The notes under the pieces were generated by a model. The model did not search any database and had not been told where the DNA came from. It saw nothing but the letters and a program-made list of their open reading frames with translations. From Rhytidiadelphus loreus (taxonomy: Eukaryota; Streptophyta; Bryopsida; Hypnales; Hylocomiaceae), in the NCBI GenBank assembly GCA_947034895.1, contig OX344761.1, positions 31,446,863 through 31,510,862 on the forward strand: DNA of 64,000 bases, in the 5' to 3' direction. The position numbers were made by a program, and so were the translations under genes. Positions 1,650 to 58,102 of this stretch are shown piece after piece; position 1 is the first letter of the stretch, and every line of letters begins with the position of its first letter.

Positions 1650-3720
1650 CACGAGGGGCCGGGAGGTCTGGGTGCTGGCCTGCCTCGCTGCACCTTTAAA
1701 TAGAACATTGAAATGGGAAGCCGGTCTCCTCGGAGCCCGCGAGCAAGCACTATGGCTTGGATAGGGAGCCCTCGGGGCCGAGAGCACTGGGTGTTGGCCT
1801 GCAAGGCTGCACCCCTAGAAAAGAATTGAAATGGGAAGCCGGTCTCCTCGGAGCCCGCGAGCAAGCACTAAGGCCTGGACAGGGAACCCGCGAGCAAGCA
1901 CTGAGGCGTCTCCAGGGAGCCCTCGAGGCCGAGAGCACTGGGTGCTGGCCTGCAAGGCTGCATCCTTAGAGAAAATTGAAATGGGAAGCCGGTCTCCTCG
2001 GAGCCCGAGAACAAGCACTAAGGCTTGGACAGGGAGCCCGCGAGCAAGCACTATGGCCTCGACAGGGAGCCCTCGGGGCCGAGAGCACTGGGTGCTGGCT
2101 TGCAAGGCTGCACCCTCAGAAAAGAATTGAAATGGGAAGCCAAACTCCACGGAGCCCGCGAGCAAGCACTGAGGCGTCTCCAGGGAGCCCTCGGGGCCGA
2201 GAGCACTGAGTACTGGCCTGCAAGGCTGCACCCTTAGATAAAATTGAAATGGGAAGCCGGTCTCCTCGGAGCCCGCGAGCAAGCACTAAGGCCTAGACAG
2301 GGAGCCCTCGAGGCCGAGAGCACTGGGTGCTGGCCTGCAAGGCTACACCCTTAGATAAAATTGAAATGGGAAGCCGGTCTCCTCGGAGCCTACGAGCAAG
2401 CACTAAGGCCTGGACAGGGAGCCCGCGAGCAAGCACTATGGCCTGGACAGGGAGCCCTCGGGGCCGAGAGCACTAGGTGCTGGCCTACAAGGCTGCACCC
2501 TTAGAAAAGAATTGAAATGGGAAGCCGGTCTCCTCGGAGCCCGAAAGCAAGCACTAAGGCTTGGACAGGGAGCCCGCAAGCAAGCACTATGGCCTGGACA
2601 GGGAGCCCTCGGGGCCGAGAGCACTGGGTGCTAGCCTGCAAGGCTGCACCCTTAGAGAAAATTGAAATGGGAAGCCAGTCTCCTCGGAGCCCGCGAGCAA
2701 GCACTATGGCCTGGACAGGGAGCCCTCGGGGCCGAGAGCACTGGGTGCTGGCCTTCAAGGCTGCACCCTTAGAAAAGAATTGAAATGGAAAGCCAAACTC
2801 CACGGAGCCTGCGAGCAAGCACTAAGGCGTCTCCAGGGAGCCCTTGGGGCCGAGAGCACTGAGTGCTGGCCAGCAAGGCTGCAGCCTTAGATAAAATTGA
2901 AATGGGAAGCCGGTCTCCTCGGAGCCCGCGAGCAAGCACTAAGGCCTGGACAGGGAGCCCTCGGGGCCGAGAGCACTCGGTGCTGGCCTGCAAGGCTGCA
3001 CCCTTAGAAAAAATTGAAATGGGAAGCCAAACTCCACGGAGCCCGCGAGCAAGCACTAAGGCGTCTCCAGGGAGCCCTCGGGGCCGAGAGCACTGGGTGT
3101 TGGCCTGCAAGGCTGCACCCTTAGAGAAAATTGAAATGGGAAGCCGGTCTCCTTGGAGCCTACGAGCAAGCACTAAGGCCTGGACAGGGAGCCCGCGAGC
3201 AAGCACTATGGCCTGGACAGGGAGCCCTCGGGGCCGAGAGCACTGGGTGCTGGCCTGCAAGGCTGCACCCTTAGAAAAGAATTGAAATGGGAAGCCAAAC
3301 TCCACGGAGCCCGCGAGCAATCACTATGGCCTGGACAGGGAGCGCGCGGGCAAGCATTGAGGCGTCTCTAGGGAGCCCCCGGGGCCGAGAGCACTCGGTG
3401 CTGGCCTGCAAGGCTGCACCCTTAGAGAAAATTGAAATGGGAAGCCGGTCTCCTCGGAGCCCAAAAGCAAGCACTAAGGCTTGGACAGGGAGCCCGCAAG
3501 CAAGCACTATGGCCTGGACAGGGAGCCCTCGGGGCCGAGAGCACTGGGTGCTGGCCTCCAAGGCTGCACCCTTAGAAAAAATTGAAATGGGAAGCCGAAC
3601 TCCACGTAGCCCGTGAGCAATCACTATGGCCTGGACAGGGAGCCCGCGAGCAAGCACTGAGGCGTGGATAGGGAGCCTTCGGGGCCGAGAGGTCTGGGTT
3701 CTGTCCTACAAGGCTGCACA
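1650..3720. repeat. Modular GC-rich minisatellite, ~117-bp core with optional 33-bp unit
   Basis: About fifteen tandem copies of a unit containing GAGAGCACTGGGTGCTGGC and a conserved GAAATGGGAAGCC segment. Measured from GAGAGCACTG, successive units start at 2081, 2199, 2316, 2466, 2617 and 2734, giving spacings of 117-118 or 150-151. The longer units carry one extra 33-bp module (CCCGCGAGCAAGCACTATGG...). The outermost units differ from the inner ones: both ends carry GAGGTCTGGGT (near 1665 and 3688) instead of GAGAGCACTGGG. Long ORFs on both strands are a by-product of 117 and 33 being multiples of three. GC content is far above the surrounding DNA. Confidence 0.93.
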
Positions 3721-5568
3721 CTAAACAATGAACAAATTGCCAACTCGATGTCGATTTGCAATAAACATGGACATTTCAGCGAGGCTTTGAGCACGAGATC
3801 ATACCTCTGTATTGCGAGTGGATGCCTCGCGTCCTGTTTCCGCAATTCCTCCGGCTCCATGGTGTCCCCTCTTCGACCGCAAGTTCCGATCCACCATGAC
3901 AAAGATTGTACAACTTGATACAAGCGCCGCGATTGCCCAGTTATGCATACACTCCACTCCGAATGTTCAAGGATTCGGCGAAGAGAACGGCGGATGAGAG
4001 TTAAAGAGATGGTGGCGGCGGCACTTTGGATCCTTAGGGTACACATGCGGAATGTCGACCCCTGTGCGTGGACGTGGGACGGCAGGAAAGGACATCCTGG
4101 ATGATATCCATTCTCTCCGAGATGGCCTCCGCGATATTAAATGGTGGAATAATCTTGTTTCTCTCGGGTTTGGAATTATCTGGTGACGGTAGCTAGGATG
4201 ACATATCGAGAATATTTGGGGAGCAGGGTCTCATGGTACTTTAATATCATGTGGAATTTTCGTCGACGTACAGTATTTAAGTTTTACAGTCTGTAATCGA
4301 TTTAGGGTTAATGGGATATACTATAAGGTACGAGGTCCAGATGTGGAGCATCTTAGTACTAAAATGGAATTATGGGGAAATTAATCATTTGGAAATACTT
4401 TTTAGTGTATTTATATTATTTCCTAGTGGATTCAAAATCTGACTCAGTTCGTTTCATAATGATTGGAAATTTGTGGTATTAGTTACAAATGCTTGAAGGT
4501 TCTAGAATGTGGTCTTCCGTCGTTATCAAAATGGACCACCTCCTAGAATGTTTGTACATTGTACATTGAAAAAATAAAAATGTACCTCTGAGTGATGTTC
4601 CATTTCAATTCCCCCTCCGTTTTACAATCTTCGACCTTACCGGAAATTAATCTAAACTGAGGATACATTCAATTCTTCCTGTAAAATATACTTTTCCGTA
4701 TTTCATTAACTGCATGTTTTAGACTATGTGGGATTCAGTTCTAGAATTTTATCATTGATAACTTCATTTGTTTTAGATACCCTCCTCATGCCTTACTGTA
4801 TTAAACTTTACTTGTCATTGTCATTTGATACTATGGTCATGGATTCCAATAAGCTGATAGGGTTTGAAGTGTCATCATATCATGCAATCGATTTTGAATA
4901 GACTCTTTATAGGTTATGCCGTTTCCCTATGACATTCCTTCTTGTGGATTGAATGCATGTTGGCTTCACTTAGTTCATTCATTGATCACCATATTCCTTC
5001 TACCTTTATATCTCCCTTGTGCGTCTAATATTAGAAAGATGTGTAAGGGGTGTTCATCACCCCACTTTGCCACAACGCTTATATGTGTGATCTCAATTGT
5101 ACATACCTTGTCCATAGAAAATATGTAGTATCAATTGGTTGAAATCATATCTTCAGGGGGCTATGTTATTGGCGGTCTGATGACAGTAAAATTTTGTTAT
5201 TTAATACATGTCGCTCTAGTGCATTTACACATCAGGAATACTCTTAGATGAAGGACAGATAATATACGTGTCCTCATTATGAGTATCAATGCTTGTCGCC
5301 GCCATTTGATGAGGACGTCCTCTCATCAACAATTATGCAGATAAACTGTATTATGTGTTATGAGGTATTGGGTTCATATAACCGTCACAAACATTCAGTT
5401 TATGCAGATATATAAATGCTGTTGTATTCCTTCATCCTTCTTTTCATGTGCCAGCATGCTTCTATTCCTCTACTGATGTTCTTCTTGGACTTCGAACTCC
5501 AAATTCAGTTCATTGCAAAACCTACCTTGGACTCCTTCTTCTCCCTTTTTTTATTCAGTTTCTCTAAC
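3721..5568. other. Intergenic stretch between minisatellite and MULE gene
   Basis: AT-rich with no convincing gene. The first 300 bases after the minisatellite are more GC-rich and hold short overlapping ORFs on both strands (around 3624-4046) with no recognisable domain. The rest is presumably 5' flank of the MULE transposase gene. The open frame upstream of 5569 (from 5416) is hydrophobic and ends in the real-looking start, so I treat it as leader sequence. I did not find the outer terminal inverted repeat of the MULE here. Confidence 0.5.
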
Positions 5569-7208
5569 ATGGAGGACTATACCCATATGGTGGTAATCCG
5601 AGCTGACGATGAAGGTGTGCTTGTGATTTTCCCAGTAGGAGCTAACGGACTTGCCGATGTTTCGGCTTTAAGATTATCTCTAAGATTTCACTTTATGCTT
5701 GATTCCATTCATGTAGATCAAGACGTGTTTGATATTGAGTCAGGTACCCTACTTCACACTATTGGTCAAATGCCGACAACTACTGCTCAGAATAGGTTGT
5801 GGTACTTGAAACCTGGAAGTTATCGAGCCTACGGAGTGCCTATTGTCATTGAGTCCAAGCCTACGGCCACGGGAAGTTTTCCTAGGTCCTCCGCTTCTAG
5901 ATTTCATACTCCGCCTTCGACCAATGTCAAGCTAGAAACTTTTGCAGACATGGTCACCAATTTGAGCTCTGACTCTGATGGTCTTTCTCCAGTACCTCGT
6001 TTCACTTTGAAGACTCCATCTTCGGTAGAGTCATTGCCACCTTCTTCAGTATTGAAGTCAATCGACTCTCCAGACTTAGGTTCATCAAATGAGTCAAAAA
6101 CATCTGTGGTTAATTGCTTGAAGGGCCTGCGTACATTGAAAGGATGTAGAAACGTCTTGTCTAAACTGGACTATGATAATATTGAAGTTCATAAAGTTCC
6201 AGTATTGCCTCCGTCGTTTAATGGCGATGTCATATTTGAATTGCCAGCTCTTGAAAACAGTAGTACCGTCTCTTCAGCGAGACAAATGTCGGGGATGGAC
6301 AAGCGTTACGATGGACAGGTCTGGTCAAAGACTGTGACCACGAATATAGTCAATCCTATGGGCTTGTCGTTCCGCAAATCGGTTTGCGTGGGTCATCTTC
6401 GTTGTGTGAATACTGAATGCGACTTCCTTCATCGAGTTCACAGAATGAGAGATGTAAACGAATTAGAGTGGGAAGGACTATCTCCGCTACCACTAGATGT
6501 TGGACAACCACATCCGCCTAGTTCCACGCTTGTATGCAAGATTTGTAAGGAGCCTCCTGCTTGTGTGGCGCGTTGTAATGTGCACGTGTATTACGTTGCA
6601 GGCAAGTGCACTTTCAGTAGGGCATACGTCCATCTTGGTCATCACGAGCATCCGGTTAAGGATGGTGAACTCAGAGATATGAAATCCATATCACGAACTC
6701 TTATTCGAGAGCAATTGGAAAGGACTCCTTCTGCTACGAATTCCGCTATAGTCCTAGAAGCAACAAAGGAGTTGTTAGGAGGTCTTCTTCTATGTCCTGA
6801 GGGAATGCAACCGAAGAGTATGGACCTTGCCTCCCTTGTTCCTGTACTCGACAAATGCAAATACTTAAGCTCTCCGAGCATAAGGAATGAGGTAACTTCC
6901 TTCAAGTTCTTGCGTAAATTTGGAGTGCTAGATAGCATTACTAGGTTGAGGGGGTCAAGCACATGGGCTTTTGTGAAGGAGAGCAAATTCCCAGGTCAAG
7001 GGACCGACATAGATAAGGTATTCCTTTTCAAAATGTCTGAACTGGGGCCAGGGAGTGGAGTCGATTTGGTGAAGCGAATGCAAACTGGAGGAGACCTTGA
7101 GGAAGCATGGATCATGTTTGATCACGTGAAGCGTGTTAAAGATTGGACGACCATGGCGTGTCACGTTTATGACTCCGGATTCTGTCGGGTGATGACAATC
7201 GCCTGTTG
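5569..7208 (+). pseudogene. MULE-type transposase, 5' part (interrupted by transposon insertion)
   Basis: First 546 codons of a Mutator-like transposase. The ATG at 5569 starts MEDYTHMVVIRADDEG. A zinc-binding N-terminal region has Cys/His pairs in VCVGHLRCVNTECDFLH and in LVCKICKEPPACVARC, followed by HLGHHEHPV. It ends in the transposase core at FDHVKRVKDWTTMACHVYD and then ...MTIAC. The frame breaks at 7209, where a foreign 15.4-kb element begins. Reading resumes in the same frame at 22603, with codon TGT split as TG (7207-7208) plus T (22603). Coding 5569-7208, 22603-23056 and 23409-24860 joins to 3,546 nt (1,182 codons including stop). The family assignment rests on motif recognition; the interruption is directly visible. 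Confidence 0.8.
7203..7208. repeat. Target-site duplication CTGTTG, left copy
   Basis: Six-base CTGTTG immediately left of the 15.4-kb element; the same six bases lie immediately right of it at 22597-22602. Removing one copy with the insert restores the MULE reading frame. Confidence 0.88.
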
Positions 7209-7233
7209 GGTGTACATAAGATAATAGGAGCCA
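7209..7233 (+). repeat. Left terminal inverted repeat of the 15.4-kb transposon
   Basis: GGTGTACATAAGATAA then TAGGAGCCA; pairs with 22572-22596 on the opposite strand with about 5 mismatches in 25. The mismatches suggest an old insertion or a short, loosely conserved TIR. Confidence 0.8.
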
Positions 7234-7238
7234 CAAAA

Positions 7239-7424
7239 GGTGTCACACTTCCTTTTTTTGAGCTTTGATTGTGAATAATTTTAATTGATTCTTGGATATT
7301 TAAAAAAAAATTACACTAGTGTATTCAATATTGTATGTCAATTGTGAAACATGAATTACATCCATATATAGAAATGTGTATGTATTCAAAAAGGACAGAA
7401 ATGTGGGTGTCACACTTGCTTTTT
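7239..7424 (+). repeat. Subterminal direct repeats GGTGTCACACTT(C/G)CTTTTT
   Basis: Near-identical 19-20-base motifs occur at 7239-7258 and 7406-7424, just inside the left end of the transposon. Subterminal repeats of this kind are often transposase-binding sites; that role is inference. I did not find an equally clear copy near the right end. Confidence 0.5.
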
Positions 7425-7694
7425 GTGCTAAATAGTGCTTAATTGGATGAATACTATGACGTTTTGGATGAATACGTGATTGGCGCCTTCACCTGGAAAC
7501 ACATCCCCGTTCATACTTTGTATTGACATTGTAGCCGTTTCTCTCTTCGCTGAGTCCTGGCGCTCTTTCCTTGTCGCCAAACTGTATGTTCAGGGTTTAG
7601 GGTTTCTCCTTGCGTTGAATCGTAGTGCTCTTCCCTTCTTAGCAAGTTCTGGAGAGCACGCTGTTAGAATTTGGGACTACTGTTGTTAAGGTAA

Positions 7695-7855
7695 GCCGCA
7701 ACCACATTGAAGTGGAGGGTTTTGGAGATTAGAAAATCGTTGAAGCCCTGAAGGAATTTCAGCTGCGCGCAGTTTGGCGTGGAGAAGGGCTTCCTTACCG
7801 TAGTTGTTGAATGCCACCAACTCTTAGTGGTTGCCGCAACCACATTGAAGTGGAG
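7695..7855 (+). repeat. 23-bp direct repeat pair inside the transposon
   Basis: GCCGCAACCACATTGAAGTGG(AG) occurs at 7695-7717 and again at 7833-7855, a spacing of 138 bp. The second copy is preceded by GTGGTT, which makes a short near-palindrome with CAACCAC. It lies between the left end and the DDE gene, so it could be part of its 5' leader or promoter. Confidence 0.55.
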
Positions 7856-8510
7856 CATTTGAGGGTGAACATCGGCTGCGGTTCAAGTTTGGGTTGTGCC
7901 TGCAGAGGCGGTGACCATGAGAACTTGGATTTTCATGTACAACTGAATGGGAAGTGCGTTGTTGCAATAGGTTTGGTATCGGAGGTTGCGGTCTTCTCAA
8001 GATCGGACCAGATGCTTTAGGGTTTTGAACAAACGAAGACCCAACATTCTCCAGGTACGACGGTACGTTCTTGGGTTTTGGTCATGGCGCTTGTTTGTTG
8101 TGCATCGCCATTGTTGCGCTACTATCCAATACTTTCATTTTTATGTAGTGCTCTTAGTACGATTTAAGGGCGGCAAAATCACTACTTTATTTGAATCACT
8201 ATTAGTTCTTTCTGCTGGTGCTAGTTGTAGGAAATGTTCTAGTCTTTGGGTTTAGGAGGGATTCGGGGTTTACAATTGTATGGTTTGGAAATTCAGACAT
8301 GAATAGCTAACTTAAACAGTGCATTTCATAGTCTGTTCCAAACTCAAGGCTCTTGCGTGACACGTGATTTCTGTAGCTTTGTACCTTGGTTTTGGCACTA
8401 TGTCTTTAGATGTACCTAGGGTATGCTCCGTGTCTTTCCAGGTGACTGGGAATGGAATTACTGATGTATGTCTTCCTCGGTGGGTGTATTTTCAAAACTG
8501 AACCTTCAGA

Positions 8511-11500
8511 ATGGCTGAATTCCAAAATGGCCAGGGACCTGTAGAAGAAGACGCTTACCAGGCTTGGTCCGCAGAGAAGCGGAAGGCGTTTGCACGTGAG
8601 CGAACGCGGCGATGTCGGGCTAGAAGAAAGGCAGGTTTGGTCGAAAAAGAAGTAGCAATGACATCAAGAACTGAACAGGGAGAATTTGCGAGTTTTGAAC
8701 ATTGTGCCTCTAGGGCCAGTAGAATTAGCCAAGACATTGCCAGGGAGATTGCAGAGTTTGCTTATTCTCGCTTAGGAGAGTACGATGCTAACATTCAGCA
8801 CCTTACTGTGCAGAAGTTTTTGGGTCACAGTTACATGAAAAACATGATTCCACCATTCCTAAGTAACTTGGAAACTATCAAATTGCAACACAATGTTGTT
8901 TCTAGTGTAAGAGAAGGTATGAGAGAACATTTGGTTGGTGTGAAACCATCAAAGATTGTTATTGCTAAGGATATCTTGTGCACCTTTGCTTCATCTTCAT
9001 TGGCTGGGAGTGGTAGAGGGTTGGCTGCTGTGTTGGGGGTAGACAGGAGAAACATATCAAAGGCACGGGGTAGACGGCTTGTTTTGGATGGTACTAAGGA
9101 TGCTTTCTGGCTACATCATCGTAGACAAATTCGCAGCGATTCGCTTGCACAGAATGTGAAGGCCGCAGTGGAGCAGTGGTGGGCTGATGAGACTACGGTG
9201 TCTCCAAATCGGAAGGGTATAGTTAGTTTTCATGAAGGTCTAAAACAATGGATTTCGCATCCAACCCATTTCCTTCAGTGCTCACAGGTATGGCCTTATA
9301 CTTAGGTGTATTTCTTGATGTTGTAATGCGATGCTCAATGCTGAGCTTAAGGGTGTTTTGTTGCTTGTGCTTAGGGTGTACTTGCGTATTGTGCTTAGGG
9401 TGCTTGTGCTTAGGGTGTACCCAAAAGCACCCAAATGCTTTTGTGGAGGTTGTGTTAAAGGTGTTGTGTTGCTTGTGCTTAGGGTGTTTAAACTATTTTC
9501 CTTGTTGTTGTTTGCAACGAATGTTACCACGTGATAATGTTGTTGCTCTTGTGCTGAAGTGGTGTGCTTAGGGTACTGGGTTGCTGGTACTTAGGGTGCT
9601 TATGGTTAAATCCTGTTGCTTGTGCTTAGGGTGTTGGGTTACCTGTACTTAGGGTACTGGTTTACTTGTGCTTAGGGAGAAAGAGTGTTTCTTGTGCTTA
9701 GGGTGCTGGTTTGCTTGTGTTCATGATTAAAGCTTGTTGCTTGTGCTTAGGGTGTTGGGCTTTGGGTGCTTAGGGTGTTGGTTTGCTTGTGCTCAGGGTG
9801 CTTATGGTTAAAGCTTGTTGCTTGTGCTTAGGGTGCTAGGTTGCTTGTACTTAGGTTGCTAGTTTGCTTGTGCTTAGGGTGCTTAGGATGAAAGACTGTT
9901 GTTTGTGCTTAGGGTGCTGGGTTGCTTTTGCTTAGGGCGCTGGTTTGCTTGTGTTTAGGGTGCTTAGGGTGCTGGTTTGCTTTTGCTTAGGGTACTGGGT
10001 TGCTTGTACTTAGGTTGCTAGTTTGCTTGTACTTAGGGTGCTTAGGATGAAAGATTGTTGTTTGTACTTAGGGTGCTAGGTTGCTTTTGCTTAGGGCACT
10101 AGTTTGCTTGTGTTTAGGGTGCTTAGGGTGCTGGTTTGTTTTTGCTTAGGGTGTTGGTTTGCTTGTACTTAGGGTGCTGGGTTGCTTTTGCTTAGGGTGT
10201 TGGTTTGCTTGTGTTTAGGGTGCTTAGGGTGCTGGTTTGCTTTTGCTTAGGGTGCTGGATTGCTTGTACTTAGGTTGCTAGTTTGCTTGTGCTTAGGGTG
10301 CTTAGGATGAAAGATTGTTGTTTATGCTTAGGGTACTGGGTTGCTTTTACTTAGGGCACTGGTTTGCTTGTGTTTAGGGTGCTTAGGGTGCTGGTTTGCT
10401 TTTGCTTAGGGTGAAAGACTGTTGCTTGTGCTTAGGGTGCTTTCACTTTGTTCTACTTTTGTGCGGAAGGTGGCATGCTTAGGATACTAAAAAAGGTAGA
10501 CTGCTTTTGCTTGTAGTGAATGTCAACACATGAATGCTTCTACTGTTGATGTGATTTTTCTGATTTGTGTTAATTGGTGTGCAGCTCGAATTTTATACGG
10601 CTTTCAAGGCTAGGAACCTTAACCTCGTTTGTAGCTTGACTTCTTTTGAGAACCTTAAGCCCTGGTGGGTCAAGCGGTTGAGAATGTGGAACACTTGCTG
10701 CTGCCGATATCACCAGGAGTTGACGGAGTTGATGATTGCTCTCGACATTATGAGGACTGATATACAAGGAATTCATTCAGATTGTTTGTGTGATTGTGAG
10801 ATGCTTTGTGGTGGCTTAGGGTGTGGTGAAGGTTTGGGTAGTATGTGTAAAGCTCATCTTCAAGTGTATGAGAGGTTGACTAACCTTTGGACATCCATTT
10901 TGTGCAAAAAAGAGGAACTGTCAATGTGGCACAAGCGGGATTGTTTAATTGGTAAATGCGTGGATTGTGGAATCCAGTTGCTTCGTATTTGTCCTCAGGA
11001 AATGACATCTGAGCAGATTGTCAAGTGGAAGAGCATCGGATACAAGGTGATGGGTACAACGGAAGAAGGAAATCCAAGGAAAGCTTCAACCTTGGAATAT
11101 AAAGAAACAACTCCCCGTGAGTTGATCAATTACTTGAAACCTAAGTTGCAAGCATTTGTGTTGCATAATTATGTAGCATCTTGGCAGGATTATCAATTTA
11201 AAGAGTTGTTTACCTCTGTTCCGCCTGGCACTTTAATCTCTTGCATTGATTTTTCAGAAAATTATACTTTCAAGATTCAAAATGAGATACAAAGTATGCA
11301 TTGGCATAATGATCAGGTCACCATCTTGGTTCATATTACTTACAAGTTGAACCCTACTTGGAGCAAAGATAGCAATGAGCCTCTTTTGTTGAAAGAGATT
11401 CATTATTATGTATCTAATGATTGAACTCATGATTCTCTTTATGTCCAACATTGTCTTATGCTGAATTGGGAGCATGTGAAGGGCCAAGGTTTCACTCCCA

Positions 11501-12519
11501 ATAACCACATAGTGTGGTCAGATGGATGTAGTGGACAATTCAAGAGTGCACGAGCTTGGTATTTTATTAATAGATACCCTAAGTTGACTAGCAGTGCCAC
11601 ATTGCTAAATGGTTGCCAAATGTCTTGGAATTATTTTGGTTCTGGGCACGGGAAAGGAGAAGTGGATGGTGCAGGTGCCTTGCTCAAGAGAGAGATCCGG
11701 ACGGAGCAGTTGAAAGCGGATGGAAGGAAGCTACAGAGTGCTGCTGAGATTGTTCAGTTTTTAAACGAGCAGGCTATGAAGGTGCATGCAGGTCCTCGAG
11801 GTGCCCGGTGTGAGACACAGAATTTTTTTTGGTTGATTCCCAAAATTGGCTTGGGTAGTGTAGATAGGAGTGACACTAGGCAAGCTGAACGTGTTCCAGG
11901 CAGCATGTCAAACCATCAATGTTGTTCGGTGACTGCTAGAGACCCAACACTTCTCCAATATCGGCATTTGTCTTGTTTTTGCTATGTCTGTTTAGGGTAT
12001 GAGACCCAGTATACTTGTCATCAAATTGATCATGTGCCAGAATTCACTTTGTATAGGTTGAGACCCAAAGCTCCATTCCAAGCTCGGAGACTTTATGATG
12101 CAAATGAGGAAGTTGAAGCTGGTACTGGTGGAGAGTGGATTGCTGATGGTTTGTGCGTGGGGGACAATGTCGCTGTGCGTGCACCACTTGAAGAGGAGCC
12201 GTGGTGGCTCATGATCGTTGTCAAGGCAACGTACATTGTTGAGGAATCCTTCACTGACCCGGATGAGAATGTTTATGTCCCTGGAGATGTTGTTTTCAAT
12301 GGAATATGGTATGAGAGGCTGAAGGAAGGGAGTCGAACTTATTTGCTGAGGAATGATAGAGAACCAAGTACAGTTTATAGCCACATTGTTCTTACTTCCA
12401 AGTTTAGTTTGCCCCCTATTGCACATCCTATCAAGAGTCGTTTATCAGGATTTGAATTGAAGTTAGATGTCAAAGAGATTATAGATGAGGCCCTAAGGGG
12501 TGCTGTGCTACTAGACTAG
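8511..12519 (+). pseudogene. DDE-type transposase of the 15.4-kb element (one nonsense codon)
   Basis: Two exons, 8511-9287 and 10585-12519, join in phase 0 (CAG|GTATGG donor, TGTGCAG acceptor) to 904 codons. The N-terminus is basic (ARERTRRCRARRKAG), a likely DNA-binding region. The middle has dense cysteines (DCLCDCEMLC, later RDCLIGKCVDCG), probably zinc-binding. Three conserved blocks look like an RNase-H-fold catalytic triad: CIDFSENY (D at about residue 481), VWSDGCSGQFKS (about 572) and GHGKGEVDGAG (E or D at about 618-620). This signature resembles a poorly named transposase-like family I recall from metazoan genomes; the match is from memory. The C-terminal 150 residues (GLCVGDNVAVRAPLE...) look like a small beta-barrel reader domain such as BAH; that is tentative. 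TGA at 11422-11424 interrupts the frame, most simply from CGA, so this copy is probably inactive. Confidence 0.68.
9340..10445. repeat. Intronic TTAGGG-rich minisatellite
   Basis: Fills nearly all of the 1.3-kb intron (9288-10584) of the transposase gene. Degenerate units of about 20-35 bases share GCTTGTGCTTAGGGTGCT and GGTTTGCTT, with dozens of TTAGGG cores and some TTTAGGG. It is not a telomere tract: TTAGGG is never in a head-to-tail hexamer run. A G-rich repeat on the transcribed strand could affect splicing, but nothing here shows that. Confidence 0.85.
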
Positions 12520-15500
12520 CCTCTGCTATGTACTTGTAATCTGCCCTTTGCAGCGTATTTTTATTTAATACGATTCAATTTGCAAACGGTTGTACATCAA
12601 AGACTTGGTGGTTTGTGCTTGAATGTTTGAATGCTGGTTCCAAATTTTGCCGATTTGATCTTACTTGCAATGACGTGTACAGTGTACTACATCGAACACT
12701 TCAGTGTTAGAACTAAGACATGGGTTGATGAATTTCGTTGTGTTGACATTTCACGTCCTTGTGATAATTTTGCTAGTAGTTCTTCTTTTGCAGTAAATAA
12801 ATATCCAGCACTGGGGTATTCATTGTGTATATATGCTGTCAGTGGAATTGTAATCGGATGCCATAGCCAACCTGGCAAGGATTTTGGGGGCAATCTTGCA
12901 CCACGATTCAGATGTCAGTATCAATTAAGAAATATCCAACTAGCCATGCTCTTTGAATTTGAAATGTTCAAGTGGACCATAAGGCAAACACCGAAGAGGG
13001 CCACTTTTTGTTACATTTTAGGTACAATTCTTAGATTGATCACATTTGAGCATTTTCTTTTTGGCAAAAGAAATGAGATTTCTATGCACCCAATGACGTG
13101 ATATTTGAATACCAGAGGCAAAAATTGTTCAGGGTTAAAGCCTTATTTGGAGAATTTGCCACTACAATGAATTGTTCTTGAGCTTGGGCAAGGGCAATTA
13201 TGGGCATACAATTCTAGCCCTCTACCGTGCCATGTTGGAGAGTTTTATCAAACTTAGAAAGAAGAGAGTACTAAAATAAGGCTAAGTTGTTCTCCTAGAT
13301 TCACATACCCTATCATAGCCGTCTTTACTGTGCAGTGATGTCAAGATTCTCAAAGTTTAGTTCAAAAACCACCATCATTATCTTGTATATATACCTATTT
13401 TGGAGATGTACAAAAGATGACCATGATGGCGGTTTACGGGTTTTTGGCAACACACCAATTTAAAAGGGTCTACCTTTAATTATGTTAAACTTCTATTTTT
13501 CATTAAAGAGTTTGATTTTTTTTATCATGTTGGCACGCTCATTAGATTCAATTTAGATTCAATTTTTCAAGTGCCATATGTTGCCACGCTGGAAATATTG
13601 AATTTAGAAATGGAACTTCTTGAAAATTAAAAGGGCATTCTAAATTCCTATGGAATGTGAGCCTGTGAGCGTGAGCTGTGAGCTGTGAGCGAGAACATTT
13701 TTTGGGAAATATATGTATGAAGGACCTATGATCGTGGTTTAGGGTAATTTTGATTTTTGGAAAAGGTGAGTACATTTAATAAAAATTAAACTCACTTGTA
13801 CAATTATATTTTTAAATTCTTCACGGCAACAACCGATTGTACTCCATTATGATTAACATCACGCAAAAACAAATTGTACAAGCACATGAATGTATCCAAA
13901 AATATCAAATGAAGTATCCAAAAGTTTGGGCATAATAAATCACACATAGAAGCCTCCATGTTTAACCTACTATATATCATTACTAACTTAAATTAGTGCA
14001 CAATGAACTCACACATGGAAGTCTTGGATTATTAATTGAGAAGCCTCCATGTTGACCTTTTGGCATATGGCCATTAAATTGAATGACCAAGGCATAATCT
14101 ATTCACAAATATTTTTTGAAGAAGCCTCTAACCTCGATGTGCATGGGACTATGATCAAGAGGTTTAGACATGTCTTGATTATCCCATATCATTTGGTACT
14201 AATTGAGTAGGCTCCTATTTATGCACTAGTATGTGTTAGTCACTCAACCCGGAGGCCCAAGGATGGACCATGCCTCAATCTCATTGAGATTGGGGGAATC
14301 TCCATTGGGCCTCCGGACCCCCCACCACCACTTTTTGGTTGAGGCTAAAATTGAGAAGTGGGAATTAGAGTACTTAGGTAAATGTTACATGTCAACCAAT
14401 ATAGTTTAGGTCCCAATTAAAATTCTATTGACACTGATATATAATGTTTTGATTTAAATCCTAGATTTATCACACATAGCCATACATAAAAGTGGTCAAG
14501 AAATAGTACAATTGAATGCAAACAATATGTCTAACATTTGTTGGATGCTCAATGCAATCTTGTGTATTTAGAAGACGCTTCTTCTTTTATTAATTCATAC
14601 AAGGGTAGAGGCCAACAGTCATGGAGAATGTAGAAGGACACCTTTGTGCCCTTAGTCCTCATTAAAATTGAATTAAAAAAATTGCCGATTTCACTAATCT
14701 TTTTAAGAAATGGTCCATATATATGTTCTACATGTATGGAAGACATTGGGATCAATTCATATTTTAGATCACCAATTTGATGGGACTTCTTCCACAAAAT
14801 TGATAATGGCCTTTTAGTCAAGGGTTAGTCAAGGTTTAGTTCATTAGCATTTTGTACATGACTTCATTCCAACTAATTTGGGGAAATTGATTGTACCCTA
14901 TATTGGTAATTTTGATTTCGAGTAGGGTCTCTAGAGTCTCTATAATTACCCTCAAAAGACAAGCCTGTAACAATTATTCCAACTTCAAAATCATTCACTC
15001 GAATGTTACATGCTACCAAATTGACCTTATTGTAAAACCGATCCCTACAAACTCGGGCGACAAAAAATGATAATCCGTTGAACTTGAATACTTAGGATTG
15101 ATTTTTGGTCCACCTATTTTTAGCACTTGAAAATTCATTGTTTTAGATGTTAGCAAAAATATATACTTAAGCTAAGGGAATTTAGAATTTTTTTACAAAT
15201 CCAAAAAATAACAACAAAACTGAAGGCAATTCTATAGTACAAAGTATAAATTGTTAATACTTCCTCATGTTGCTTGAAATTGTTAATGCTTGCTCATATT
15301 CCATTTTTTAATCTCTTATTTTTTTATGATTATAAATCATGAATTTTAGCTTGACAAGTAAATTTTTAAATAAACATGGATCACTTGTGAAATTAGATTT
15401 GACATATAACCTGACATTATTTAAAAGACTTCAATTTACTTTTACCACCTTAGAATTCTGGTTCCATTATAATGATGATTTCAATCTATATGTGATGTTG

Positions 15501-17054
15501 TTGCTAATTTTTTTATCCTAAGTGATTCATAGCACCTAGATGGTTGAAGACCACGCAAATGCTATCAAGACCTTAACTTTTTTTTGAGTTTTGGCACCAA
15601 TTTTAGAACATAAAAAAAACCACGTGCATTTGGAGATTCAATTTTTGAAGCATAAACATTTAGTAAAGTAGCACCAAATGAGCAAGTCTTTCTTGCAATT
15701 ATTTAACTCGCATGAAATGAATCTTGGATTTGTCCACATTAAACTCATAGCTTTATACAATATTTGTCTTGGAAATTGTTTAATTAAGGGTTGACGTGAC
15801 TAGGCTGGTGATTTATAGTTCAAAACATCCTATCGTACGTAACAAACAAAACAAACAACCTAACTTAAAAACCCAAAATGACATTGAGGATAGTCTAAAG
15901 TGTCCTCGACATTTGTCAACCCCAATTTGCAGTCATTTACCAAGCTCAAATGGGAAAATCCAACTTTCAGGTTTAGTACAATTTTGCAATGCCTATCCAA
16001 TGATACCGAATTTGAGAAATTTGAGAAAGTATTGTGATTTCTATGTTGCTTTACAATCTAGACTTGTTAAACGTCTTTCAGTTTGGCCTTGAAATGATGG
16101 ATTTGAGCTTCATTGTTTGAGCTTGCTTTGCAAGCGACCTAGACAATGAAATCACCTTAAATTTTTTTCACAAACTTCCATGAAGTATATTGCTACAAGT
16201 GAAGTTTTCTTCTCTATGTACAATTGAATTTATTTGAAAAGCAATAGATTTGAGCACATAAAATTTCGAAAACAACCACTTATCCTGGAAGTCATTCTAA
16301 AAGAAAGAAAATCCCATGTCACTTTGGGATTAAAGTATGGATTACAAATATAAAATTCAATACTATTGTAAGCTTAAAATTTGTACACAAAGTCATATTT
16401 TAGCACAAAATGGAGATTTAATAGAAATTTATACAATATATATATGGTTCGCATGGAATCTTTAACTTCAAAATGTCCAAGCCCTTTTCTGACTCCAAAC
16501 TCCAAAGCTATTTCCATAAAAATTCAAAAAACAGTCCGCCAACAAAAACATGCTGAGATTGGACTGCGCTGGGCTGGGCCACAGATCCCACCCACACAGC
16601 GCAAATTTTTGAAATTCTAGAAGCAAAAGCTCAATACGTACTTCCTTCTCGAATTCACCGGGTCAATTCTATTTTTTCCAAGTGGTTGCTCTCAATTTTC
16701 TTGCTTTGGAGTTTCTTGTCTGTGCTTTCGTCAGGTCACCTTCACTTCTGTTAAATCAGCTCCAAATTTATCGTTTACTTCAGTTGTGAATGTGTTTGTT
16801 GTTTAGTTTTTTCAATTTAGACAAGCAACAACTATGATCAGAAGCAACACAGTAGGATGTTGTGCAATTTCAAGACAGGGAACTCAATTCAGTAGGAAAA
16901 GTGGGAAAGAGCGTCATCGAATAGTATCATGTATTCTTGCACCACAAATTGATGAATAATTTATACATCTCATACAACAAATTTAATCATGCGTAACAAA
17001 AGAGCAGTTGCACTATATTTAAAAGTCCCGACTTGGACAAGTGCAAAATGGAAA
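12520..17054. other. Gene-free AT-rich interior of the 15.4-kb transposon
   Basis: Between the convergent 3' ends of the two element genes. After about 13.1 kb base composition becomes distinctly AT-rich and no ORF longer than about 100 codons looks coding. The open frame at 12631-13101 has no recognisable domain and weak coding character. A short GTGAGC-rich run (about 13665-13695) resembles runs near 26130 and 63285. The composition change suggests a secondary insertion within the transposon, but I could not find its ends. Confidence 0.5.
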
Positions 17055-20000
17055 TCAAATGTTCTTTACTCTGCTCCTAGTTACCACCTTTTGTATTGTT
17101 TCAACTTGTATACCAATGATTTCTGGCTCCATGTCTCCTTTCCTACATTCATGTCTACGAGAACTTCCATTCTTTGAAGGAGACCGTCTAGACAATCTTG
17201 TGGCTTTATACACATCATTACTCTGGTTGGATGCACATGATTTGCTAACCTTCTTCCTCATGCTGGAATCATCTATACATGGATCACAAGACCTCTTCAC
17301 ACTGAAAGAATATCTTGCAGTACTTGTACCCTCTGCTGGACTAGCCTCTGCTGCACTCGCTGGACTAGCTTCTCCTAGACTTGCCTCTGCTAGACTCGCT
17401 GCAATCCCCATACCCTCCATGGTTGTGGATACAGGATCCACTGGGGTGCAAATTTGTGCTGAGAAAGCCAACAAGAGCAAATTCAAACACTTAATACCCA
17501 CAGCATTCAAGAGCAATTCAGACAGAAGCAATTCAGACATTAGGGACAAACACTAAGATTTAGAACATTGCTATCCTTTGGAAATCAATTGCCACCAAAA
17601 CCAAGCTTACCCGGCTCTTCACTATGGCACAGTAGTGCATCAATATCCTTTGGTGCCAATATTATTGCCAAGTTCGACTTTATTGCATCATCACTTGCAC
17701 CACCTGCTGCCTCCTTTGCTGGGGAGTCTACCTCATCAACACTGTCACTATTAGGACCTGCTTTTGTTTCTCGTTGCACATTATCTCCATGTGATGGTGT
17801 GGCATCCTTCAATCTGCTACCTGAAATGCAAGGGACTCCAGGCTGCACTTGATAGATTGATCCGGATGATCCCCTATCAAATTGTTTCCCCCTAGATTGC
17901 GACCCTACAAACAAAAGACAGAATCACTAAATCAGTCAATCAGTAGTTACAAACAAGCGCCTCCAAAGTATTTATATCTCCAAGCAGCCCACAAAACCAA
18001 TAGGATAATAGGGGCCCAATTATGCACACCCAAAGTACTCAAGTAGCTCAAGATAATGCTTTGGCAAATGTGGAGATCCCAAATGTGATCCATTGCTATC
18101 AAAAACAACATTAAAATTGCTCTAAACACATAGACTAACTCAGAACTACTAATTCCATCACTTCAACTTATTGTGTATCTTTATTAGAATCTGAAGAACA
18201 CATTCCAATATAAAAAACAAATTCATGAGTATTCCAAAACGTAAATACAAACGCATGGGCGTCCAGCACCCCAGCACAGAACAAGTACCCAGTACCCAAC
18301 CCTTGACGCCTGAATATCTAGCACCGAAGCACAAAAAAAGTGAGTACCCACCACCCAAGCCGAAACACATGAATATCCAGCACCCAAGCACAAACTGAAG
18401 CACAAACATGAGAATAACCAGTACCCAAGCACAAACCGAAGTACAAACAGGAAAATAACTAGCACCCAAGTACAAAACCAAGCATAAACAGGAGAAAAAT
18501 CCTAAACTAAAGCACAGAAAAGGTGAGTATTCACCACCCAAGCAGAAACACATGAATATCCAGCACGCAAGCACAAACCAAAGCACAAACAGGAGAATAA
18601 CCAGTAACCAAGCACAAAACCAAGCATAAACACATGACATATCCTAAAGCAAGGCACAGAAAAAGTGAGTACCCACCACCCAAGCCTAAACACATGAATA
18701 TCCAGCACAAACCAAAGTAGAAACCGGAGAATAACCAACAACCAAGCATGAACACATGAGTATCCAACATCCAAGCACAAACCAAAGCAGAAACCGGAGA
18801 ATAACCAGCAACCAAGCATGAACACATGAGTATCCAACACCCAAGCACAAACCAAAGCACAAACCGGAGAATAACCAGCAACCAAGCACGAACACATGAG
18901 TATCCAGCACCCAAGCACAAACCAAAGCAGAAAACGGAGAATAACCAGCAACCAAGCATGAACACATGAGTATCCAGCACCCAAGCACAAACCAAAGCAC
19001 AAACCGGAGAATAACCAACAACCAAGCACGAACACATGAGTATCCAGCACCCAAGCACAAACCAAAGCACAAACCGGAGAATAACCAGCAACCAAGCATG
19101 AACACATGAATATCCAGCACCCCAACACAAACCAAAACACAAACCGGAGAATAACTAGCAACCAAGCATGAACACACCGAATATCCAGCATCCAAGCACA
19201 AACCGAAGCATAAAGAGGAGAATAACTAGCAACCAAGCATGAACACATGAATATCCAGCACCCCAGCACAAACCAAAACACAAACCGGAGAATAACCAGC
19301 AACCAAGCATGAACACATGAATATCCAGCACCCAAGCCTATACCGAAGCACAAACAGGAGAATAACCAACAACCAAGTACTAAACCAAACATGAGTATCC
19401 AACTCCCAAGCACAAACGCAAGAGTCTCCAATACCAAAGCACAAATGCAAGAGTCATTCACACTTGTAAGCAGGATACGCTAGCAACCAAGCACATCAAA
19501 CTGATCATCAACACTTCTAAGAAATAAAGGCCAGAATGATAAACATCAACAATAGAAAAGTGCCGGAAGTAGACATTGGAAGCAATAAAGCATACTTGAG
19601 GGAAGGAAGTTTATACCCATTCTAGTGTGTTGTGTCAGCCTTACCTCAAAAGTGTACAAAAGCACTTCAGTAGGCACATGGTTCAGCAATACCTCCAAAG
19701 TAATAACAGAGGAGGTGACTAAAGCACCAACATAACCTGTTAGCACTTAACTAAATCGGAACCCAACTAAAGGATTGCAATAGTTCTAAAGTAATTAATC
19801 AATCAAATTGTAAGCATTGCCTACAATAAAATTGTATATGCTACCAGATCTAGAAACTAGACAGCAATCACAAAGCACCAAATTAGTTTAGCATAGAAGT
19901 TCAGGATTCACTCACATTCAGGGATTGGAATACCAAAACTATCCTTCAAAGTGTCACTCAACTCCTCCATGGACCTTGCCAACGATGATTTAGCAACGGC

Positions 20001-21975
20001 ATCTTGTACATCTGATTCCCGTGAGCGGAAACCAAACGACCTCCACCATGCAGGATGGAAAGTCTTCTTGCAAATGACACAATCATTTTGAGTCTCTGCA
20101 ACCTTGGCAATGCAAAATGGATGATAAAAATGCCTGCAGCTTGCCATAACAACATCAAATGATGTGTACCATCGGTTACAAAATGAACAAGCTTCCAATT
20201 CAAACACAGTTCCACCCTCATCCGGCACATGAGGATGCAAGCAAGGTTTTGGACAGCAAGTCACTCCTCCTCCCTGCTGCATCATGTGAATCTGATCTGC
20301 AACTGCGTCCTTGTATCGTCGCACCTCTTCCAACTCTCTCTTCACCACTGTAATGTCAGCCTCAAACTTCCACATGTCTAGACCAGCATTAGTATAAATT
20401 TCTCCTGCTTTTTTGGCCCTTCTTTGATAATCTTCTAAACTGAAGTTAGCAAACTCCAGCTTCTTAGATTGCACTTCTCGCTCTAACCTCAACTTGTCTA
20501 ACTTCTGTAATCTAATTGTGAATTCATCATTGCCTTCATCGAGGTTGTCTCTGAATTGCTGCACCTGTCAAGAGAGAAAGCGAAAATGTTCAAACTCAAA
20601 AGACATCACAGAGCTAGTGAATGTTGAATAGGGTGAGATCAATGCAATCAACCGCAACCCTACATTACCAAGAATACCCCGAACTCCTAGGTGCACAAGA
20701 GAGTAGTTTCAGAACTTAAGATCCAGAAGTCCCGAATTCCTTTATGATATGGTTCCACTTCCATTGCATACCTAAAAAAACAAAGATAGAATGAGTAGTA
20801 TAATCTTAAACTTAGCTTGCCAAATCATTTTCAAAGCCAGCCTGTGCAGCCTAACTAATCCCTATCAGAGCTGCAGAGCAGGCTGAGCAATATAAGCGAG
20901 AATTGTGCACCTCAAACCCTAAACCCTAATCCCATCCAGATCATTGAAAGATTGTCTACTACAAACTTAGACCCCTAATCACAACCACATCACACTAATC
21001 AAAGAACCAAACATGTAGCACCACAGATTGTCACCGTGACACCAAAGATTTTTGAAAATTACTCACACTCGTCTCCAATGCCGAGATTAGAAGCCCGTTC
21101 TGCTTCAACCCTTCCTCCACCACCTTCACGTTCTCGGCCGCCTCCTTTGCATCAGCGTTTCTATCGTCCATCCCAAACTTGAATCCGATGATTCTCTCTG
21201 CAATGCTGGTCTTTGAAGCATTCAAAAACCTCTCTTTACTCTCTGTATTTGTCAGCAGCTCACCTTCAACTTGCAGCACCTCTTCTGCTTGAACAACCTC
21301 CGTTACCAATACGGGAGGTACACCGACACCAACACATTTGAATTTTCCAGAGAACAACTTCGATTCCACCGGTTGTGACCCCAAACCGCTGCTCCTTGCA
21401 CTGGCTTTTGAGTGGGAAACGGAAGGCTTCGCAATAGCGTAAGGTGCCAAATGCTTTAAGGCAGCAGCCTCCTCCGAAGTAAGATCTCTCCTCAAAAGTT
21501 CACCCTCTAATCGGCTGACAAGAAGTTGGTTCGTCGATGCAGCAGCGGATGCCCAATTTACATCAAAACCCATCAATTCCGCAATGTAGCCTTTTACCAC
21601 CCAAGCCATAAACTCATTATTTGTAATCTCAACCTTCCCATAAATTTTAGCACACAACTGGAGAAGCTCTGCCCTACTTTGTGGATTCAGAGTACAATTG
21701 GTTGTCTTAAACGTTGAACACTTTCCCCAGACTTCCTCAATTTTCTCAGGGGTCACACAAGCCATATCAACGGAGTGCTTCGGGTTTAGACCACGTCCGC
21801 GTAAACCTCTCTCATTCACAAAAAAATCAGCTGTCTGAACCTTAAGGGCTGCTAACTCTAGAAGCAACTCTGTAACAGACTGAGGGACTTTCACGGCCTT
21901 CTGCTTCTTGTCAAATGATCCCCTCCTCTCTCTTGACAGTTTCGCGGACTCTCCTCGCACCACCTTTGACTCCAT
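17055..21975 (-). CDS. Coiled-coil RING-H2 protein, second gene of the transposon
   Basis: Four exons on the minus strand, 21975-21067, 20564-19916, 17904-17611 and 17458-17055, join in consistent phases (GTGAGT, GTGAGT, GTAAGC donors) to 752 codons with no stop: 751 aa. Residues 1-303 are a helical N-terminal region of unknown family. Residues about 304-400 are charged and heptad-like, probably a coiled coil. Residues about 429-468 fit C-x2-C-x13-C-x-H-x2-H-x2-C-x10-C-x2-C, a RING-H2 arrangement, followed by a conserved-looking KTFHPAWWRSFGF. The tail is low complexity, with Ala-Glu-Ser repeats and a basic end. RING-H2 domains usually recruit E2 ubiquitin enzymes; activity is untested. Its position inside the element boundaries and its intact frame suggest an accessory function for the transposon or a captured host gene. 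Confidence 0.72.
18240..19440. repeat. Intronic minisatellite with 70-bp period
   Basis: Lies in the 2-kb intron (17905-19915) of the RING-H2 gene. The motif CCAAGCACAAACCAAAGCAC recurs at 18771, 18841, 18911, 18981, 19051 and, with variation, 19121, 19192, 19261 and 19332, a period of 70 bp. The part before 18750 is a more degenerate version with longer composite units. The period is not a multiple of three, yet long minus-strand ORFs (for example 18502-19461) run through it because stops are rare in all frames; I regard these as artefacts. Confidence 0.92.
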
Positions 21976-22571
21976 TGTTCGCTATAGACTTACCTAAGTA
22001 CTAAACTTCAATGCAAAAAGAGAACCGATGCCCTTAAATCACAGCTAAATCCTAAATTATACACCATGATTGAAGAGGTTACTAGAACTAATACAATGCA
22101 GAGACACACTCAAAGTAGACCCTAAACCCTAGCGGGTCGACAACAAAACTTCAAGGTAGGAACATCAATAACAAACCATCAGAAGCACTGTAAAAATGAT
22201 CCACCACCGAGATGATGACCTTCAATCGCACCCTAAACCACTGAAGCTCCATAATTCAACCGTAAACACGCGCTGCAAGCCAACCCTACACAAGATTTAC
22301 AAAGTTTTTAAGTTGAGCACATCTCAGTAGCTTGAGCGTAGTCTAAGCGCCGCTTCAGCAAAACATGAAAACCTGCGCAAATACCTAAGTTGGACAACGT
22401 GAGCGGGACCTGAGCGAGAAAATTGAAAAAACCCGTTAGCTGGTTGTCAGGACGTTGGGAAGGCTTGTTGTCAGGGAGTTCCAAATGTGGCGCTGCACAA
22501 TAACTATGCGTACAGCTCATCCAAGTCCTAGTTAAAAGCAGTCATACAAAGCACCTATAGGATGTTGACTT

Positions 22572-22596
22572 TGGCTCATTTTATCTCATGTGTACC
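22572..22596 (-). repeat. Right terminal inverted repeat of the 15.4-kb transposon
   Basis: Ends ...TTATCTCATGTGTACC on the plus strand, the inverted partner of 7209-7233. Confidence 0.8.
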
Positions 22597-22602
22597 CTGT
22601 TG
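22597..22602. repeat. Target-site duplication CTGTTG, right copy
   Basis: Directly abuts the right inverted repeat; identical to 7203-7208. Confidence 0.88.
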
Positions 22603-24860
22603 TGACATGCAATCTGAGGATTGCGCAGCACAGGTTCTTTTTTGGACAAACCTCAATTCAGTTGTAGAACGACATGGTGTGGCAAGGACTCAATTCAAGG
22701 GCTTCATGGCAGACAGCGCGTAAGCAAACTGGAATGCGGTGAGGACGGTGTATGGATCGGGGGATATTTCCGTACCAATGCTCAACCGTGAAAGGACATG
22801 CCTTTTTCACTGGACTCAATCCATGGAAAAGCATACAAAGGCAGATATTCGAGGAGACTTGCAGGATCAACATCGTCTGCTATGTAAGCAGTACAAGAAC
22901 GCCACTTCAACGCATCAATCCGAGGAACGGTACTTAGCCATCAGGGCGTGGTGGTTGTCATCAAGTGCCACCACGGTGGAAGGATTGCGCAAACTAGAGT
23001 TGTGGCTTTCGTTCTGGCATTTCCGTTATCGCCAATGGGGAGGCTTCATGGAACTTGTAATTTCCTCATTGTTTTCTCCTTCATTTGTAACAATGTTTGT
23101 TATGCTTTATGTCAAATTAGTTATGCTGTTACACTGTCAAATATTCCACTTTGGTTAGATGTGGTGCAGACGTAGGTTCCCTATAACAAACGTCTCGGTC
23201 CCGAGACGATGGTCAGTAACCTCAACGGTCTGCACCGTTGACTACTTCAAACTCTAGTTTTCCCATGTCATATGTGGTCATAGTCTACAGCCTCCTCTGG
23301 TCTCTGTCAAATATATTTATGCTTCCGCTTGGCATCCTCGAAAGACTCACATGCAGAGCTAACACATGTATATACCCCCTGTGATTTCAAGATCTAACTG
23401 CATCCGAGAAAGCTGAAATGCCGTCTTGCAACCTTGCGGAAACTGTGCACAATAAGTGGCTTCAGCAATCTAGGAAGCGTGGAAACGACTTATACGTTGC
23501 TACGGTCGATGACTTTGTCAGAGCATTCATGCAAATGGTCAAATATCACCAATATCTAAAGGGAAATGAAGGAGGGACGGGACCAGGGAAGGAAGAGTTA
23601 TTGTTACGAGTTGCCCAACGTTTGGCAGAGCGAACTGGTAACCCGAAATCACTCACTGAAGCACTGTCGTCTATTCCAAGTGTTGAAGCTTTCATCAACA
23701 GAGAGCCTCATCTCGAAGGTCAAGAAGTTTTTGGATCACAGAAGAGGAAAGCAGACATGCCACTTGGATGCGAGTACGACTCACACCGACCAGACAAAGT
23801 GAACTTCTCACATCCTCGTCGGCAAACGAGATCCTTCAAAGCGAGTTCAAGTGTTCAAAATTTGAACACAATAGTGGAGGACATTACTCCAAGTGAAGAT
23901 GTTGAAGTTCTAGACGCATTTTCAGTGGAGGTGAATTTGAGACAAACTACAATTCCAAATTCGACTCATGTATCAGCAGTTCAAGAAACCATGTGTGATG
24001 AGATGCAGTGGCACATTTCACGACTACCAAAGACATCAGCAAAGGCGTGCTTTGTTCTTCAAGCAATGACAAAGAAAAAATGCACAGCTCTAATAGTACA
24101 AAACAGCACTGCAACAGCGGCTCCGACATACACAGGTATGATGGTCAATTACAAGCAAAATCGTAATGATCGTATGCAATTTTTTTTTTGCAATGACGAC
24201 ATTGAACGATGTGTCAAAGGATCACGGCGGAAATGGGTGCTCTCTCTACCACCTGTTCCTGTTATTTGGCCGGTGAAATTAGGCACCCAATTGACGGTGG
24301 CCGAGATTTTAGCACTTGAAGCGGCCGGTTTCCAACTTCCACAACGCCACCTCATTTCCCCAAGGAGGTTGTTTGGTGGAGAAGCGGGCATTGAAATTGT
24401 GTGTAATTATCACATTCCAGATTCAACTGATGAACATCCTACAACTCGGACTGGGAAGGTCGTTCGTCGAAATCCAAAGGCACCCACAACAAAACACCAA
24501 AACAACTGTGCATCGGCCTTAACTCTGAATGCCCGCATTGTAAGCGTAACTATGGTCCCCCACCCAAGTTTTGGATGCATAGTAGCAATGGACTCGGGAA
24601 TAGAGCCCCGGATTGAGAAGTACATGCTTACTATTTCCTCGTTTCCGGACTGCACCTGCCCTTATTTCAAGGAAATGAAGCTGAAGTGCTTGGGGAAGCG
24701 TGGAGCTTGGTCAAATTGCAAGCATCTGTACTTTGTTCTCAATGTCATCTGCAACCTTCAGTCTTCCACGGATGTCTTCATCCATGCCTCAACCTTCAGT
24801 TTCAATGAGGTCAAACGAGTGCTTCTTAGCGGAATCCTAAACCATTTGAGATCGAATTAG
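22603..24860 (+). pseudogene. MULE-type transposase, 3' part with SWIM zinc finger
   Basis: Continuation of the transposase gene that begins at 5569. Exon 22603-23056 starts CDMQSEDCAAQVLFW and includes the catalytic-region motif FKGFMADSA, immediately followed by an in-frame TAA at 22721-22723 (most simply from CAA, Gln), then ANWNAV. It continues through CLFHWTQSMEKHTKA and WLSFWHFRYRQWGGFM. A donor at 23057 (GTAATT) and an acceptor ending at 23408 join in phase to exon 23409-24860. Near the C-terminus, CTCPYF followed by CKHLYFV is a SWIM-type zinc finger, typical of plant MULE/FAR1 transposases. With both the insertion and the stop this copy is dead. Confidence 0.78.
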
Positions 24861-40375: not shown

Positions 40376-40712
40376 TACTTGTATGTGCTCAAAGGAAAGA
40401 TGTTAAGTCAATTTTGATAATTTTGTAGTTAAAAGGAGTAATACTTCAATATATTTATATCATTCATTCATAGATATAGTTTACTTTTACTTTAAAATAA
40501 ATCATAATAAATAATAGTGATACCTCCAATGTATCTATTTCATTGATATATGTGAGACATTTTTTTTCCTTTCCACTAATATTTATTACAATAGTTTGTT
40601 TCTACTTTTAATCAAAAATGAAATAGAAATGGTGGATTTGTTTTATTTTTTTGAAAGAGAAAGTTCATTAAAAGTTTTAGTCAAGTTCACATATTCTTAT
40701 ATATAATGTATT

Positions 40713-40844
40713 CACTAGTAGAAAATTAGACCCAATTTGTTGTTTTGGTTGCATTGATCATCAACAAATTTCTATTAATCAACAGAACTTTGTTGATGAT
40801 TAACATGACCAAAACAACAGATTGGGCCTAATTTTCTACTAGTG
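40713..40844. mobile_element. CACTA-like foldback MITE, 132 bp, TSD ATT
   Basis: Starts CACTAGTAGAAAATTAG and ends with the inverted CTAATTTTCTACTAGTG. The two arms pair over nearly the whole length (about 66 bases each) with scattered mismatches. ATT flanks both ends (40710-40712, 40845-40847). Confidence 0.88.

Positions 40845-48962: not shown

Positions 48963-58102
<9,140 letters not shown>

Follow-up and report, generated by a model that had tools for sequence, protein, structure and literature searches.

A ~15 kb DNA transposon with a RING-H2 gene, most likely of the Sola kind, in a repeated gene of the moss Rhytidiadelphus loreus

Genetic context of the insert

The window examined is a stretch of 64,000 nucleotides from the moss Rhytidiadelphus loreus (GenBank assembly GCA_947034895.1; contig OX344761.1, coordinates 31446863 to 31510862), in which a multi-copy gene was found to be divided into 5' and 3' parts by an insert of ~15 kb (Table 1). 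The insert carries a plus-strand gene predicted to encode a DDD transposase and a minus-strand gene predicted to encode a protein with a RING-H2 finger. It is very probably a cut-and-paste DNA transposon of the autonomous type, most likely belonging to the Sola kind, with a RING-H2 gene that is conserved and under selection. An initial annotation, made from the window alone, had described a large two-gene cut-and-paste transposon in a repeated gene, and copies with different flanks were found genome-wide in support of this description. Its two genes on opposite strands, one of them a RING-H2 gene, were likewise recovered in the reading frames of the window, in a Pfam match and in a conserved spacing of the finger.

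Removal of the insert together with one flanking repeat copy makes the interrupted gene exactly continuous in frame again in the window sequence, as had been reported initially. A 69 amino acid (aa) peptide spanning this empty junction was used to search the assembly containing the window (407 Mb in 489 contigs, five of them of 51 to 94 Mb), and 150 places were scored of 1089 candidates. Sixteen of the 150 scored paralogues were identical over the junction (69/69 aa) with no stop codon and lay in frames 150 to 785 aa long, and many members of the family are single open frames of 755 aa; about a dozen weaker rows included a stop codon. As the uninterrupted gene is present many times in the genome, the insert is not an intron, and the initial annotation's own suggestion of a search for uninterrupted paralogues, with an intron shared by the paralogues as the contrary outcome, was thus answered in favour of an insertion. 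No evidence was found for either a large intron or an assembly join, and both are almost certainly wrong given the 16 paralogues identical over the junction and the presence of copies with target-site duplications (TSDs) at unrelated sites.

The interrupted gene had been labelled a MULE transposase gene, a label that Pfam did not uphold. No family was found for the 5' part or for a 181 aa stretch spanning the junction, and the sole match in the 3' part was to SWIM at E 0.3. The gene belongs to an abundant family that has probably expanded recently, to judge from the 150 scored places and 1089 candidates, and upstream of it (coordinates 1655–3731) lies a tandem array, rich in G+C, whose units measure 33, 117 and 150 bp.

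Ends of the element and its target-site duplication

The inverted ends reported initially (GGTGTACATAAG... and GGTACACATGAG...) and the CTGTTG sequence flanking them (coordinates 7203–7208 and 22597–22602) are present in the window. The genome was searched for further copies bounded by these ends, as the initial annotation had recommended, and six siblings with both ends read were found. The left 493 bp used as query returned 17 rows, the window included, of which 13 covered the query from base 1 or 2 through to its end, three began at base 1 and ended sooner, and one was an internal piece. For the right ends, 12 stretches were taken; nine of these were readable, and for six of the nine a left end was matched as well. 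Left out of the TSD count were three siblings for which the right end alone was read (L040, L046 and L047), three stretches with no recognisable right end (L042, L048 and L050), and one copy of a second family, described below, whose left end was not found.

At the left end, G precedes GGTGTAC in all seven copies (the window and six siblings), and at the right end C follows the last ACC in six of the seven. The 4 bp beyond this outer G or C are identical on the left and right in 7/7 copies, and read TGTT, TCAA, TAAT, ATTA, TTAG, CTCT and TGAT. The second family has ends reading GGGTCCAAGCA... and a transposase 47–48% identical to that of the window family, and its two copies with both ends read also have 4 bp TSDs (TGTT and CGTC), so that the TSD is exact at 9/9 insertions. 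The outer G and C belong to the element and not to the duplication. The flank pairs of the seven copies and the two second-family copies therefore set the TSD at 4 bp and the element at 7208–22597. The transposon ends where the initial annotation had placed them (7209 and 22596), except that each lies one base further out, and the 6 bp duplication proposed there is replaced by one of 4 bp.

A true 6 bp duplication, since mutated in the siblings, would be in keeping with the literal 6 bp repeats found in three of the seven copies (the window, C3:14.32M and C1:49.9M). However, the other four copies match over the inner 4 bp, their outermost bases being a left G and a right C, and both copies of the second family carry a 4 bp duplication, making this explanation highly improbable. 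The CTGTTG repeat is a coincidence, and the restored empty-site sequence is the same whether the TSD is counted as 4 or 6 bp. The end 12-mer GGTGTACATAAG had 27 matches in the genome versus 131 for a reversed-pattern control, and is by itself no proof of an end; the paired flanks are the proof. A further GGTGTACATAAG at C1:67283726 (L006), where the interior is only partly similar, possibly marks a diverged or non-autonomous relative, or is there by chance.

The six siblings are 14203–15993 bp long, and the second-family copies are 10433 and 10704 bp. Eight core copies share 99.0–99.6% identity over ~4 kb at the transposase locus and the nine RING loci compared share 80 to 99%. Recent transposition is likely. 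In the second-family copy at C2:64.45M (L087), the left part is unlike that of its siblings almost as far as the transposase, which might reflect a replacement or an interruption.

Transposase

The product of the plus-strand gene is identified as a DDD transposase, as the predicted catalytic triad sits on a confident model of an RNase H fold. A 364 aa piece of the transposase includes a stop in two of the eight core copies, and is open in the window copy, which is stopped just before it.

The modelled fold of the C-terminus is possibly BAH-like. BAH was not among the best 25 of the 38 families listed for 55 transposase members at E up to 1, nor was it found when nine members were scanned singly or in a profile search of the PDB.

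RING-H2 gene and its pairing with the transposase

The two predicted minus-strand exons would encode a 521 aa protein ending in the RING-H2 finger. The Pfam match to zf-RING_2 (E 1.1e-4, 22.8 bits) is below the 27.3 cut-off, and the C-x2-C-x13-C-x-H-x2-H-x2-C-x10-C-x2-C spacing of a C3H2C3 cross-brace is found in 16 of 17 RING loci. A database search with the protein returned 13 homologues, each covering 45–60% of the query, and the seven inspected all align to exon 1.

Genome matches were scored at 150 of 1093 candidate places for the RING protein and 112 of 339 for the transposase, some of the 112 being pieces of one gene, and 133 of the 150 RING rows were used to examine pairing. At 66 of the 112 transposase places the two genes were found to converge, no more than 15 kb apart. 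This arrangement was seen at 12/15 places where transposase identity was at least 70%, at 21/28 with 45–69% and at 33/69 below 45%, the lowest being 34%. The other three gene arrangements occurred at one, one and no places, and 200 shuffles gave 0.49 on average and at most 3. In pairs with a synonymous divergence (dS) above 0.1, the ratio of nonsynonymous to synonymous divergence (dN/dS) was 0.20–0.28 for the RING gene and 0.13–0.18 for the transposase gene, with a dS of 1.6 being near saturation; dS was not estimable for four of the 19 listed pairs. These ratios from aligned sequences show the signature of purifying selection on both genes alike in diverged pairs.

As convergent pairing extends across families and diverged pairs are under purifying selection, the RING gene is considered to be part of the element. 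Were it instead a passenger gene taken up from the host, the maintenance of the convergent pair across families at 34–56% transposase identity and the selection in diverged pairs would not be expected, and this origin is improbable, even though RING fingers are common and the genome search with the RING protein also gave weak matches in long host-like or other-protein frames. We infer that the RING protein would be an active E3 ubiquitin ligase, and the targets proposed for it below are put forward on the same footing. To our knowledge, few DNA transposons retain a selected gene of the ubiquitin-ligase type.

Internal arrays

The unit TTGTGCTT...GGGTGCTGG is common to the left and right tandem arrays and is inverted between them: the arrays have 30 9-mers in common when one is reverse-complemented, and one in the same sense. 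Among six second-family outer stretches, the core TTGTGCTT was missing from four and was single, and in the other sense, in two. As the core is mostly missing there, the array sequence is no rule of the lineage.

CACTA/En-Spm transposons are large plant elements with two genes, subterminal repeats, CACTA ends and a 3 bp TSD. The window element resembles them in its large size, two genes and subterminal repeats but differs in its GGG ends and 4 bp TSD. By analogy with the CACTA subterminal repeats, the arrays might be binding sites for the transposase.

Table 1. Coordinates of the element, its genes and the interrupted gene in the window
Feature	Coordinates	Strand	Basis or remarks
Interrupted multi-copy gene, 5' part	5569..7207	+	Reading frame and paralogues; no Pfam match
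Left TSD, TGTT	7204..7207	+	Window letters and flank comparison
Whole element	7208..22597	+	15,390 bp between 4 bp duplications; flank pairs from 7 copies plus 2 second-family copies
Left terminal inverted repeat (TIR), GGGTGTACATAAGATAA	7208..7224	+	14/17 match to right TIR
Transposase exon 1 (predicted), basic N-terminus	8511..9287	+	Open frame and GT donor; splicing inferred
Left tandem array, unit with TTGTGCTTAGGGTGCTGG	9347..10442	+	Inside predicted transposase intron
Transposase exon 2 (predicted), catalytic domain of RNase H fold bearing the DDD triad	10585..12519	+	Homologues, alignment and model
Putative catalytic Asp 1 (DFSENY)	11248..11250	+	Invariant column D222; end of model strand 216-222
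In-frame stop in transposase exon 2, window copy	11422-11424	+	Sequence
Putative catalytic Asp 2 (WSDG)	11521..11523	+	Invariant column D313; after model strand 307-312
Putative catalytic Asp 3 (HGKGxxDG)	11665..11667	+	Nearly invariant D361; in model helix 359-376
Possible BAH-like C-terminal domain	12130..12477	+	Fold only
Right tandem array, related unit inverted	18250..19455	-	Downstream of RING gene
RING gene exon 2 (predicted), RING-H2 preceded by a coiled coil (by eye)	19908..20564	-	Open frame, Pfam and genome matches
RING-H2 finger (C3H2C3)	20067..20192	-	Pfam zf-RING_2 and conserved spacing
RING gene exon 1 (predicted), N-terminal domain with unassigned fold	21067..21975	-	Open frame and homologues
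Right TIR	22581..22597	-	Minus-strand reading is GGGTACACATGAGATAA
Right TSD, TGTT	22598..22601	+	Window letters and flank comparison
Interrupted gene, 3' part	22602..24860	+	Damaged, with own stop at ~22,721 and later frame breaks; SWIM E 0.3

Relationship to known transposons

The superfamily had seemed unrecognisable in the initial annotation mainly because of the 6 bp TSD and, with the TSD set at 4 bp, the main reason is gone and the traits of the Sola superfamily (Sola1, Sola2 and Sola3) fit. In the excerpts consulted of a review of plant transposons (PMC10741241), Sola elements are described as having a DDD transposase and a 4 bp TSD, with some longer than 15 kb and most 2–9 kb, and their hosts as the moss Physcomitrella, animals and also bacteria. 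The window element shares with the elements described there the DDD triad, the 4 bp TSD, TIRs, size and an occurrence in mosses and animals, and it differs from them in its convergent RING-H2 gene, the possible BAH-like C-terminus of the transposase and the inverted internal arrays, all three of which are new relative to those excerpts. Both the 17 bp TIR of the window element and the 25 bp TIR of the second family (24 matches, by eye) fall in the Sola range of 11–1124 bp. The ends of Sola2 elements read 5'-GRG, and those of the window family, siblings included, read GGG. Membership in Sola, or in a sister group of Sola, is considered probable.

A separate DDD superfamily, alike in its 4 bp duplication by chance, is a less favoured but still credible alternative. 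No Pfam or NCBIfam family was found for three pieces of the transposase at E up to 1, and relatives gave only scattered weak matches in the family-profile scans. The named relatives come from plants and animals and are hypothetical proteins, with no named Sola sequences among the matches in the libraries searched, and no connection was made to any named Sola protein. Prokaryotic genome contigs, scanned with two patterns, also yielded no relative. However, the excerpts cited (PMC10741241) state for Sola the DDD triad, the 4 bp TSD, the size and an occurrence in both moss and metazoans, and assignment to Sola or a sister group is preferred.

Several observations weigh against a Sola-like transposon with a selected RING-H2 gene. 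The likeness to Sola is one of described features, and Sola is said in the same excerpts to include bacteria (PMC10741241), yet the prokaryotic contigs in the two-pattern scan held no relative. The outermost 3' base is T instead of C in one of the seven right ends, that of an older copy. Forty-six of the 112 scored transposase places have no RING gene in reach, a count that includes fragments and is drawn from lists of best-scored rows. In recent pairs dN/dS ranges from 0.14 to 0.83, indicating weaker or unclear selection, and the core siblings have means of ~0.4 for the RING gene and ~0.5 for the transposase gene. A slight further point is that the MULE name of the interrupted gene, based on motifs, is unconfirmed.

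Other superfamilies with short duplications were also considered. AcademX elements, in the excerpts consulted (PMC10045372), have TSDs of 3 or 4 bp and encode a nuclease; the TSD of the window element is in this range, but no nuclease family was among the Pfam matches of the larger open reading frames scanned. Kolobok and piggyBac are described in excerpts of another source (PMC9587614) as having 4 bp duplications of TTAA. None of the nine TSDs is TTAA, and this type was rejected.

Proposed mechanism and significance

The transposase would recognise the GGG-ended inverted repeats, and perhaps also the inner inverted arrays, cut the element out and join it to both strands of the target with a 4 bp stagger. 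Repair would then fill the stagger to give the 4 bp duplication, which is the part of this sequence of events that is observed. The RING-H2 protein, acting as an E3 ubiquitin ligase, may serve the element, for example through transposase stability or through host silencing factors. The copy in the window has inserted into another repeated gene, and its transposase frame now contains a stop, in a part that stays open in most near-identical siblings.

A more speculative view, which we regard as unlikely, is that of a plant lineage, Sola-like or a sister group, whose large DDD transposons carry a two-part chromatin kit. A BAH-like transposase would read histone marks for site choice or recognition, the RING E3 ligase would remove silencing proteins or control the transposase, and the arrays would be platforms for pairing of the ends.

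The lineage is diverse, with transposase matches scored at 112 places of a single plant genome, and it includes near-identical copies and open frames. This makes it testable whether the ubiquitin system or a histone reader is used by a transposon for moving or for resisting silencing. The correction of the TSD to 4 bp alters the superfamily call and matters for annotation, as the inner genes of the element could otherwise be annotated as host genes.

Other features of the window

Outside the element and the interrupted gene, an inverted repeat with 89 bp arms, 97% complementary, and an 8 bp loop was found at 45678–45863, and further inverted repeats at 46252–46883 and 40705–40852. A series of long plus-strand open frames of up to 524 aa at 52007–58102 is possibly another mobile element.
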